This document shows, piece after piece, positions 29,836 to 31,641 of a stretch of 31,641 nucleotides of DNA. The notes under the pieces are model-generated. The model searched no databases, was not told where the DNA came from, and saw only the letters and a list, made by a program, of their open reading frames with translations. The position numbers and the translations under genes are program-made. The stretch is taken from positions 1-31,641 of the IMG/VR virus record IMGVR_UViG_3300044825_001353, one strand, 5' to 3'. Every line of letters begins with the position of its first letter. Position 1 is the first letter of the stretch. The stretch comes from a virus.

Positions 29836-29956
29836 TTGGAACTTATGAGCTATAGATGTCTTGTTATTTGTATTTTAACGGGGATAATTTAGAAAAAAAC
29901 AGTGTACGTTAGACTATTACCAAGAAAGTAAGTAAAGTTTTTAGGAAACTACGGAC
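29836..29956. promoter_or_regulatory. Divergent control region between the two transcription directions
   Basis: This 121-bp AT-rich gap lies where transcription switches from minus (1170-residue gene) to plus (69-residue gene). It should hold promoters for both directions. I find no convincing -35/-10 pair; a TAAAAT on the minus strand near 29873 is a weak -10 candidate. AGGA precedes the plus-strand ATG by ten bases. Confidence 0.4.
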
Positions 29957-30166
29957 ATGCACCCTAAAGACCGCATGGAAAAAGCAATTGCACTGGAAGC
30001 AATTGCTGATGTAGCTGAAAAGATGGAAAAGTCGGGTGCCAGTGGTATGGATGTTGCGGCATTTACGTCTGGTGCACGGCAAAAACTAGCGCAAGAACGA
30101 CCAGATCCCGAGAAATATGCAAAAGCAGCTACGTCTGCAGTGAAGTGGGCGCGTACAAACATGTAA
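29957..30166 (+). CDS. Small helical protein, 69 aa
   Basis: The product has 69 residues and is strongly helical and charged: MHPKDRMEKAIALEAIADVAEKMEKSGASGMDVAAFTSGARQKLAQERPDPEKYAKAATSAVKWARTNM. It resembles a small three-helix bundle with no cysteine and no membrane segment. It starts 14 bases after an AGGA and is followed after 30 bp by a strong terminator, so it is a single-gene unit divergent from the virion operon. A regulatory or host-takeover role is possible but only a guess. Confidence 0.7.
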   Translation: MHPKDRMEKAIALEAIADVAEKMEKSGASGMDVAAFTSGARQKLAQERPDPEKYAKAATSAVKWARTNM

Positions 30167-30172
30167 GAACAG

Positions 30173-30190
30173 ACGTTAAGTAAATAACGT
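30173..30190. repeat. ACGTTA inverted repeat
   Basis: ACGTTA (30173-30178) and TAACGT (30185-30190) face each other across 6 bp, just before the terminator. The same ACGTTA core recurs in the plus-strand intergenic regions near 29908, 30442, 30939 and 31259, so it might be a binding motif. Confidence 0.35.
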
Positions 30191-30195
30191 ACACA

Positions 30196-30221
30196 GCCGG
30201 GGATAAAACCCCGGCATTTTT
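30196..30221 (+). terminator. Rho-independent terminator
   Basis: GCCGGGG (30196-30202) pairs with CCCCGGC (30209-30215) around a 6-nt loop, followed by ATTTTT. A 7-bp all-GC stem and a T-run on the plus strand make it a typical terminator for the 69-residue gene. Confidence 0.9.
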
Positions 30222-30466
30222 GTCTGTAAATTTGGGCAAAACCCCTGCAACACCTACAAATTTTAGGTGTTATGTACGCTGTGATACCAAAAAACGGCCC
30301 TATAGAGGTCAAAAAAGGGAAAAAATTTTACTGACGCTTCTCCAGTACCCTATGCGTAATGAATTGCGTATAGAAAAAAAGAAAGGGGTGATGGGTTGAA
30401 TTTATTATCGGGGGCTGCGCATCCGTAACAACGCAGGCAAACGTTATTGAATTGGAGTTTAGTTCC
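30222..30466 (+). promoter_or_regulatory. Intergenic control region with inverted repeats
   Basis: No gene is seen here. AACACCTA (30249-30256) and TAGGTGTT (30264-30271) form a perfect 8-bp stem. CTATGCGTAAT and ATTGCGTATAG (30350-30373) form an 11-bp stem if two G-U pairs are allowed. CTGCG (30415-30419) pairs with CGCAG (30432-30436) just ahead of the next gene. CCCTATAGAG near 30297-30306 is a weak T7-like core. The stretch 30309-30330 is A-rich. It likely carries the promoter of the next gene. Confidence 0.45.
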
Positions 30467-30745
30467 ATGGCAACAGTAGTGCAGACGATCAGCAACGCTG
30501 AGATGATCACACGTCTTGGTCATGCGGCAGGAATGCTGCGTTACCACAAGAAGGTTGTGATGAAGCCTGGCGTTCTCCGCGCTAGCGGATGGACGCCGAG
30601 TGATGTCATCAAGTTTCTGTTGGATGAGCTTTATGCAATGGAAGCGATTGTTGACGAAGGCTTTGGTGATGAAGTGATTTGGAAGGTGTGGATCACACGC
30701 CGACCCGAAGATCACTGCTTCGTTATTGAAGCTAGCAGCCGCTGA
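30467..30745 (+). CDS. Unknown small protein, 92 aa
   Basis: I chose ATG 30467, with GGAG at 30453-30456; an in-frame TTG at 30452 would add five residues. The product looks like a folded alpha/beta protein: ISNAEMITRLGHAAGMLRYHKKVVMKPGVLRASGWTPSDVIKFLLDELYAMEAIVDEGFGDEVIWKVWITRR, ending with strand residues HCFVIEAS. No domain is recognised. The gene is flanked by terminators on both sides and thus expressed alone. Confidence 0.7.
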   Translation: MATVVQTISNAEMITRLGHAAGMLRYHKKVVMKPGVLRASGWTPSDVIKFLLDELYAMEAIVDEGFGDEVIWKVWITRRPEDHCFVIEASSR

Positions 30746-30757
30746 GTGTTATCTCTT

Positions 30758-30780
30758 CCCCTGGTGAGAGCCAGGGGTTT
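30758..30780 (+). terminator. Terminator hairpin
   Basis: CCCCTGG (30758-30764) pairs with CCAGGGG (30771-30777) across 6 nt, then TTT. The U-run is short, so termination may be partial. It is 13 bp after the stop of the 92-residue gene. Confidence 0.7.
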
Positions 30781-30805
30781 ACATAGCCCTCAATCCCTGT
30801 TTTTT

Positions 30806-30821
30806 GATACGAATTCGTATC
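30806..30821. repeat. 16-bp perfect palindrome
   Basis: GATACGAA followed by TTCGTATC is a perfect two-fold symmetric site, directly followed by an alternating CGCGCGCG tract. It lies in a gene-free stretch upstream of the DnaA-like boxes. It could be an operator or part of an origin. Confidence 0.6.
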
Positions 30822-30889
30822 GCGCGCGACCTGGATTAGGCTCTGCTACAGGGCTGGCCTTACAGAACAGTTGCTTGGAATACCGTAGG

Positions 30890-30922
30890 TTTTCCACAGC
30901 TTTTCCACAGGCCTGTGGAAAA
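30890..30922. other. Cluster of three DnaA-like boxes, possible replication origin
   Basis: TTTTCCACA occurs at 30890-30898 and 30901-30909 and inverted (TGTGGAAAA) at 30914-30922. The last two make a 22-bp perfect palindrome (TTTTCCACAGG and its complement). The first two are 11 bp apart, about one helical turn. TTTTCCACA is the form of the DnaA box described in Synechococcus. Together with the nearby 16-bp palindrome this suggests an origin or a DnaA-responsive control site. Confidence 0.55.
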
Positions 30923-30926
30923 CTCT

Positions 30927-31013
30927 CGTCAAGCTGGACGTTAAACGTAGCAGACATATTCCTGAGGTGAGCTTAGGCCCTTGGCATCCACAATCCAGTG
31001 GTGTAAGCCCAAG
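30927..31013 (+). promoter_or_regulatory. Structured leader, copy A
   Basis: A 32-nt block (30927-30958, identical to 31248-31279) is followed by hairpin CCTGAG/CTTAGG (30961-30966, 30972-30977), then a two-part hairpin: outer CTTGG/CCAAG (30980-30984, 31009-31013) and inner CCAC/GTGG (30988-30991, 30998-31001) with loop AATCCA and internal loop CAT/TGTAAGC. It ends 18 nt before the next ATG. The same architecture with different stem bases appears in copy B. Confidence 0.65.
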
Positions 31014-31031
31014 TTACTGGTGGAGGACACC

Positions 31032-31202
31032 ATGGCTAAAGCTCATTGGGACAATGCCGAGGTTATCGAAGCTCTGCGGAGCAAGGAGCCAGGGGTTGCC
31101 CAACCTCAACCAGCGTTAGATCTTCTGGCTCAAGCCAAGAAGTTACAGCGTTGGGAAATCGAGATGCTTGTAGACGCACTACAAGATTATCTCGAGAACT
31201 GA
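31032..31202 (+). CDS. Small protein after leader A, 56 aa
   Basis: ATG 31032 follows GGAGG (31022-31026) at five bases. The product is 56 residues, helical and acidic/basic mixed: AKAHWDNAEVIEALRSKEPG, a Gln/Pro hinge, then ALDLLAQAKKLQRWEIEMLVDALQDYLEN. No membrane segment or motif. An earlier in-frame ATG at 30987 lies in the structured leader and has no ribosome-binding site. The shared leader with the next gene suggests both respond to the same signal. Confidence 0.7.
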   Translation: MAKAHWDNAEVIEALRSKEPGVAQPQPALDLLAQAKKLQRWEIEMLVDALQDYLEN

Positions 31203-31217
31203 TCCGTTAAAGCGGGT

Positions 31218-31238
31218 TGGGAGGTGCAAACCCTCCCA
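31218..31238 (+). terminator. Hairpin after the 56-residue gene
   Basis: TGGGAGG (31218-31224) pairs with CCTCCCA (31232-31238) around a 7-nt loop. No clear U-run follows (CAGTTATT), so it may be a weak terminator or an RNA-stability hairpin separating the two leader-gene units. Confidence 0.5.
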
Positions 31239-31247
31239 CAGTTATTA

Positions 31248-31341
31248 CGTCAAGCTGGACGTTAAACGTAGCAGACATAGTCTCAGGTGTTGACTGAGAT
31301 GAACTACTTGGCATCTGCAATCCCGCAGTGTAAGTCCAAGT
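31248..31341 (+). promoter_or_regulatory. Structured leader, copy B
   Basis: It begins with the same 32-nt block as copy A. Hairpin TCTCAG/CTGAGA (31281-31286, 31294-31299) and a two-part hairpin follow: outer ACTTGG/CCAAGT (31306-31311, 31336-31341) and inner CTGC/GCAG (31315-31318, 31325-31328), with loop AATCCC and internal loop CAT/TGTAAGT. Stem bases differ from copy A by compensating changes while loops are kept. The leader ends 15 nt before ATG 31357. Confidence 0.65.
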
Positions 31342-31356
31342 GTACCCAGGAGAATC

Positions 31357-31641
31357 ATGGGAGTTCGTCTCTACCCCAACACCACGGACGCCGCCAAGCT
31401 GGAGAAGCTTGCAGGTGTACCACGGGGCACGATGGCTCAGCTCGAAATCCTTCAGGAGGCCGAGCGGCTATATCGTGCTGCGCATCCAGAGGCAGATGAG
31501 CATGAAGTTGGTTACAGCTTCTATTGCATCGCCAAAGGATCCGACGTGGCAACACTTGACAGTTTCCTATCCGAAGGCTGGGGCAAGTTCCAGAGTGCAG
31601 GTCTTCTTCCTGAAGAAGATATGTATCTGGGCAACGCACCA
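31357..31641 (+). CDS. Protein after leader B, partial, at least 95 aa
   Basis: ATG 31357 follows AGGAG (31348-31352) at four bases. The frame stays open to the right edge, giving 95 residues: MGVRLYPNTTDAAKLEKLAG, then VPRGTMAQLEILQEAERLYRAAHPEADEHEVGYSFYCIAKGSD and SFLSEGWGKFQSAGLLP. The mix of helices and a WGKF turn indicates a folded protein. I recognise no domain; the VPRGT start of the second helix has a slight helix-turn-helix look but not enough to call. Complete length is unknown. Confidence 0.75.
   Translation, partial: MGVRLYPNTTDAAKLEKLAGVPRGTMAQLEILQEAERLYRAAHPEADEHEVGYSFYCIAKGSDVATLDSFLSEGWGKFQSAGLLPEEDMYLGNAP

Follow-up and report, generated by a model that had tools for sequence, protein, structure and literature searches.

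The window and its two leaders

The window, that is, the whole stretch of DNA analysed here, is the 31,641-nt (31.6 kb) IMG/VR virus record IMGVR_UViG_3300044825_001353, and its sequence marks it as part of the genome of a freshwater cyanophage akin to Synechococcus phage S-EIV1. Its relatives lie on IMG/VR contigs, the longest of about 84 kb, and the sequence match to S-EIV1 covers part of an intergenic element at 31198-31248 of the window. At the right end of the window, two small genes on the plus strand are each preceded by a leader (leader 1, 30927-31035; leader 2, 31248-31359), and in both leaders a common block, a variable hairpin named P1 and a core hairpin follow one another in the same order. 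The annotated parts are as follows:

30927..30951, + strand: M2 pseudoknot copy 1 (the common block), CGTC-AA-GCTG-GACG-TTAAACG-TAGC; S1/S2 covariation in relatives
30961..30977, + strand: P1 hairpin copy 1, CCTGAG/CTTAGG; hairpin kept in relatives, sequence variable
30980..31013, + strand: M1 core hairpin copy 1, CTTGG-CA-T-CCAC..GTGG-T-GTAAG-C-CCAAG; covariance model E 3.2e-11
31032..31202, + strand: small gene after copy 1, MAKAHWDNAEV..., 56 aa, Shine-Dalgarno GGAGG
31248..31272, + strand: M2 pseudoknot copy 2
31280..31300, + strand: P1 hairpin copy 2, GTCTCAG/CTGAGAT; hairpin kept in relatives
31306..31341, + strand: M1 core hairpin copy 2, ACTTGG-CA-T-CTGC..GCAG-T-GTAAG-T-CCAAGT; covariance model E 2.1e-12
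31357..31641, + strand: gene after copy 2, MGVRLYPNT..., running off the window, Shine-Dalgarno AGGAG

The first-pass annotation had described a duplicated 5′ leader with covarying hairpins, and both leaders lie where it had placed them, aligning over 115 columns at a mean identity of 83% with the block perfectly conserved. Over about 31 nt the two copies of the block do not differ at all, and the window contains just these two, where 0 are expected from shuffles (up to three mismatches allowed). Moreover, the loop AATCC, the internal loop CAT/TGTAAG and the compensatory changes of the core hairpin are all as described. The paired changes read in P1 are borne out in so far as a hairpin of different sequence is formed in every relative; the pair-by-pair reading is inexact, because the P1 hairpins of the two copies differ in length. 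As for the block, its identity is real, and beyond being a plain sequence block it is also able to form an H-type pseudoknot (CGUC/GACG and GCUG/UAGC). The single-sequence fold energy of the two leaders does not reach significance (z about 0 and −0.6) and is therefore uninformative, so that the significance of the folds comes from the comparison among relatives. Ten IMG/VR contigs contain the same core hairpin, most of them with the block too, and in contig L014 the ortholog of the MGVRLYPNT... gene has the same leader as window copy 2. A coding explanation of the leaders was rejected: the core lies 19 nt from the ATG in one and 17 nt in the other, so that the reading frame is not kept between them, and the changes are compensatory. 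Since the block fits the M2 pseudoknot at 30927-30951 and 31248-31272, each leader consists of M2, P1 and M1. That is to say, each is best read as a tandem composite of two general modules (M2 and M1) and P1 that has been duplicated, and the fold is not specific to the duplication.

Other elements were observed nearby. Past the first gene's stop, the interval 31200-31246 contains GATCCGTYAAAGCGGG, a covarying hairpin GGGAGG-TGCAAAC-CCTCCC with a loop like the T loop of tRNA, and CAGTTATT; this element also exists in S-EIV1 (43450-43500, minus strand) and in other relatives, with stems that have changed and are still paired. At 30410-30437, GGGGGCTGCGCATCCGNNNAACGCAGG may be a third leader fold, M3; relatives have it preserved before the next gene, and in S-EIV1 the candidate is followed by a G-free leader. 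Just upstream of leader 1, at 30891-30923, TTTTCCACAGCTTTTCCACAGGCCTGTGGAAAA repeats a TTTTCCACAG box in direct and in inverted orientation, possibly in relation to replication or protein binding.

The M1 core hairpin

M1 has the layout outer helix-GG-CA-inner helix-GUAAG-Y-CC, which takes the form CTTGG-CA-helix-GUAAG-Y-CCAAG in the relatives of the window. A structural scan found about 40 copies in 11 records, located before different small genes, and a relaxed pattern gave several copies in most full phage records (at least eight in G002), with far fewer for the same pattern read backwards as a control. The covariance model, built partly from the window copies, whose cores score E 2e-12 and 3e-11, detects 74 copies in one locus set (A4) and 202 in another (A5). 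In A4, 98.5% of helix cells are paired against 80.9% after shuffling, and in A5 99.0% against 87.6%, with 68 double-changed cells against 15 and 66 against 9.6, respectively; both alignments are fitted to the model and hold related, non-independent sequences, and slid controls fall to about 50% or less. The claim of a conserved RNA fold under selection is thus strongly supported, further copies with covariation having been found.

The inner helices contain 2 to about 12 pairs, and inner helix plus loop span 10 to about 50 nt. GNRA and UNCG tetraloops are over-represented among the loops, which indicates a fold at the RNA level. In the core, unpaired positions are conserved, as is an asymmetric internal loop. 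Four tRNA-linked copies have T and A in place of the core C and G (GGTA..GTAAATCC), a joint change that would agree with pairing of C and G within the core, while a stricter scan found the core C-G alone.

An element working in DNA, namely a hairpin promoter, a cruciform or a mobile palindrome of the REP or IS kind, would agree with the few G-U pairs in the inner helices (15/578) and with the constant distance to the start codon. Such an element is very improbable given the tetraloops and the variable inner helix and loop; moreover, the copies in one genome are not sequence copies of each other, which speaks against a REP- or IS-like repeat. A DNA promoter is further opposed by the occurrence of the elements both in phages that encode an RNA polymerase and in phages that do not, two types that P-SSP7 and P-SSM2 presumably represent between them.

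The M2 pseudoknot

M2 was first found at genes that have G-free leaders but lack M1. It is an H-type pseudoknot, CGUC-N(1-2)-S2-GACG-UUAAAC-S2′, composed in detail of S1 (A)CGUC, C, S2 UNNNCA, U, S1′ GACG(U), UAAAC and S2′ UGNNNA. In stem S2, the letters of which were left free in the scan, 364/384 cells are paired against 270 after shuffling, and stem S1 occurs as the complementary pairs CGTC/GACG, GGAC/GTCC, TGTC/GACA, AGTC/GACT, GGTC/GACC and AGAC/GTCT. When the pseudoknot is written out in an alignment of 22 sequences, picked by a scan that itself requires pairing, 96.4% is paired against 78.2% after shuffling. M2-like pseudoknots of other sequence (ATCGT-CC-GCCG-GNC-ACGAT-TAAAC-CGGC) were also observed in the noncoding arrays that follow M1 in L047, L112 and L115.

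Distribution and novelty

Both elements occur in many copies per phage genome (about 10 or more). One M1 subtype was found in at least 120 IMG/VR stretches and another in 44, and one M2 subtype likewise in at least 120. In 257 Gb from 85,000 bacterial and archaeal genomes, the strict M1 pattern gave two matches, about the estimated chance level, both in Clostridia-related MAGs; by this comparison the distribution of M1 is restricted to phages. S-EIV1 contains four M1 by the covariance model, two of them weak, and about seven M2, that is, about 11 copies together. The named phages tested besides S-EIV1 have at most single weak copies: P-SSP7 and P-SSM2 have one M1 each (E 0.0019 and 0.03), each convincing by sequence, S-CRM01 has only a weak match (E 0.29), and in the other cyanophages tested with the M1 model none was found. 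The capsid protein of one group of carriers (group B) is 64% identical to its counterpart in Synechococcus phage S-CBWM1. From this S-CBWM1-like capsid and the copies in S-EIV1, P-SSP7 and P-SSM2, it follows that the known carriers are, as far as can be assigned, phages of picocyanobacteria; some contigs (e.g., L083) are without assignment.

With the covariance models of Rfam 15 at the gathering cut-off, tRNAs were the only matches and neither M1 nor M2 matched any family. Permissive Rfam scans of the window at 29900-31641 and of 12 loci likewise gave no plausible match at the elements, BLAST of the element against named phages returned nothing useful because it is too short and variable, and a search of the open-access literature yielded no description of either motif. 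M1 and M2 are therefore apparently two undescribed RNA folds.

Position between genes and before tRNAs

M1 and M2 usually start 3-7 nt past a stop codon and leave about 20-30 nt to the following start codon. Counted over upstream gene families whose stop lies no more than 14 nt away, the distance from stop to element is 5 nt for M2 in 69/97 and 3-4 nt for M1 in 62/101; this closeness may be due to compaction alone. The spacing to the next ATG is nearly fixed, with a median of 33 nt for M1 and 26 nt for M2. The elements are not readthrough or frameshift signals, as the frames 0/1/2 of the next ATG are random (M1 24/24/32, M2 23/30/34) and TAA, TGA and TAG are all used. Intrinsic terminators were rejected as well, C/A-rich leaders standing behind the elements and a T tract only behind the P-SSP7 copy.

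The leaders after the elements contain 0.85 G per 22 nt against 4.1 for other genes, and in the last 20 nt of the leader G amounts to 2-5% against 17-24%. A Shine-Dalgarno sequence precedes 1/48 M1-associated genes against 104/654 others, the starts being simple ORF calls. The exceptions are the two window genes and the capsid-gene group B, which carry one, so that the G-free leader is not universal.

Some copies have no gene behind them. In group D and in P-SSM2, M1 leads into structured noncoding RNA instead of an ORF, and the P-SSP7 copy has no ORF close behind. In group D (L045, L050, L060, L069, L095 and L125), M1 heads noncoding regions of 300-400 nt with tandem GC-rich hairpin modules, CAGACGGYRGCAC-GGAG..CTCC-CTGCYRTCCTC. 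In P-SSM2 (NC_006883, 56626-56930; L181), it opens a structured noncoding region of about 230 nt without a match in Rfam, which has a terminator-like hairpin and a T run at its 3′ end. In the late region of S-EIV1 (KJ410740, 65597-65713; L005, 25597-25713), an unannotated 38-aa ORF, MILCRNFVRRLTAKLSLVVALQSVFVPGLKADSNWVGE, was observed behind M1, and it is conserved in many relatives.

M1 also adjoins tRNA genes. In 36/47 distinct phage tRNA-Leu(UAA) genes it lies within a few nucleotides upstream of the 5′ end, and one tRNA-Asn in an unrelated contig has it just upstream too. Behind the tRNA-Leu(UAA) there is in turn usually a G-free leader and then an ATG. The tRNA-Leu-linked M1 overlaps the 3′ end of the upstream ORF, and its helix covaries nonetheless. 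A weak tmRNA match was observed in L251 (100-224, minus strand; 37 bits against a cut-off of 47 bits, 125 nt only), which could be a reduced tmRNA; the phage contig in question also contains tandem M2.

The main rival explanation arises from these leaders. As a docking or standby site, the fold and the open leader would recruit the 30S subunit, probably via ribosomal protein S1, and so replace the Shine-Dalgarno sequence. Docking is the reading that fits best the G-free leaders and the lack of Shine-Dalgarno sequences at M1-associated genes, and it agrees with the fixed spacing from fold to ATG. It also has precedents: the tisB pseudoknot and its single-stranded standby site are needed for S1/30S binding (PMC7708055), and translation of cyanobacterial rbcS is reported to require S1 and not the Shine-Dalgarno sequence (Mutsuda and Sugiura 2006, as cited in PMC6847405). 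Docking is nevertheless somewhat less likely than the boundary reading given below, as there is nothing to translate where M1 stands directly 5′ of tRNA genes, no ORF follows at short distance in group D, P-SSP7 and P-SSM2, and the copies of group B and the window have a Shine-Dalgarno sequence.

Exchange of M1 and M2 and the proposed function

In total, 362 distinct M1/M2-gene pairs were collected, forming 32 multi-member families, and in 12 of these 32 families M1 and M2 replace each other, for example before proteins that are 91.6% identical over 95 residues. Exchange before the same genes suggests a common way of marking or launching individual messages.

Two folds before the same genes could also be two aptamer classes for one ligand, as with the SAM or preQ1 classes, and the conserved unpaired core of M1 would suit an aptamer. 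This metabolite riboswitch, which the first-pass annotation had offered among its options, finds no support, because the downstream genes are unrelated, M1 adjoins a tRNA gene and the two folds swap before orthologous genes. With about 10 or more copies per genome, no expression platform and no match in Rfam, it is the least probable of the readings considered.

The fold at the RNA level, the position at a boundary, the exchangeability and the open, G-poor leader downstream are all apparent from comparison among relatives. The preferred reading, to which a probability of roughly 0.42 is given, is that M1 and M2 serve cyanophage polycistronic RNA as interchangeable elements at the boundaries of its cistrons, read by a host factor and followed by an open leader. 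First of all, M1 or M2 would fold in the short stretch that separates a stop codon from the RNA unit after it. Both folds would then be recognised by a host factor that binds or processes RNA and that cuts at, stops at or protects the boundary, by which the downstream unit, either an mRNA with an unstructured leader of 20-30 nt or a tRNA, would become a defined and stable RNA. Finally, the open leader would permit initiation independent of the Shine-Dalgarno sequence, a mode known for cyanobacterial ribosomes. The one observation that points to a host factor is the spread of the elements across phage families, and the factor could also be encoded by the phage. The fold stands right behind the stop and at the 5′ boundary of the next unit. 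A boundary element fits mRNA, tRNA and noncoding contexts alike; against it count the Shine-Dalgarno sequences in group B and the window, the structured noncoding RNA in place of an ORF in group D and P-SSM2, and the chance that compaction alone brings the elements close to stop codons. The window leaders would be a duplicated tandem form, M2-P1-M1, of the boundary module. In a wider and tentative form, at somewhat less than even odds, M1, M2 and perhaps M3 and tRNA could be unrelated, equivalent and swappable intercistronic modules read by the host, which provide each gene with its own 5′ boundary and a start free of the Shine-Dalgarno sequence.

Comparison with known systems

Structures between cistrons of polycistronic RNA are known from phages and organelles, namely the RNase III processing hairpins of early T7 RNA and tRNA punctuation. 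M1 and M2 share this intercistronic place; unlike the T7 hairpins, they have helices that look too short for RNase III, and a conserved core loop.

The translational operator of gene 32 in T4, T2 and RB69 is similar in having a 5′ H-type pseudoknot and, from there to the start codon, an unstructured leader, at an early gene of a lytic phage (PMC535899, PMC3014915), and the M2 pseudoknot with its G-depleted leader was found to have this architecture. Accordingly, M1 and M2 could be operators at which a phage-encoded RNA-binding repressor or coordinator, e.g., phage SSB, first binds before it spreads cooperatively over the leader, as in T4. Among the genes with an element is that of SSB, preceded by M2 in S-EIV1 and by M1 in other phages. 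However, the T4 operator serves one gene per phage, whereas dozens of unrelated genes carry M1 or M2, which are not restricted to SSB. The loop and stem sequences of the operator are unlike those of M2, which moreover exchanges with the unrelated fold M1, and the leaders of M1 and M2 are C/A-rich and lack UUAAA repeats. A phage operator is thus improbable, all the more as M1 is shared by T7-like, T4-like and S-EIV1-like phages and also precedes tRNAs, and a common phage factor among the carriers was not identified.

The tisB standby site likewise combines a fold with a single-stranded region upstream of the start codon, but it belongs to one E. coli gene, acts about 100 nt from its RBS, shares no conserved sequence with M1 and M2 and has no tRNA context. 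The manA, wcaG and PhotoRC-II motifs of Rfam are structured RNAs in the 5′ UTRs of marine metagenome and cyanophage genes (PMC2864571); compared with these fellow cyanophage motifs, M1 and M2 are smaller, have far more copies per genome and no match in Rfam, and are not tied to metabolic genes. The STAXI motif consists of small pseudoknots near SSB genes, whose UUCG loops were taken as a sign of RNA (PMC2864571). It resembles M1 and M2 in both respects, the tetraloops included, but it is formed of tandem repeats in other lineages, and M1 and M2 lack a match in Rfam.

Implications

The exchange of unrelated folds before near-identical genes makes their common function directly testable, and the isolate S-EIV1, with about 11 copies, allows this to be done in a laboratory host. 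If the boundary reading is true, it would show by what means the individual genes of a long cyanophage transcript receive boundaries of their own, and how messages without a Shine-Dalgarno sequence may obtain ribosomes, which is a poorly understood part of cyanobacterial translation.
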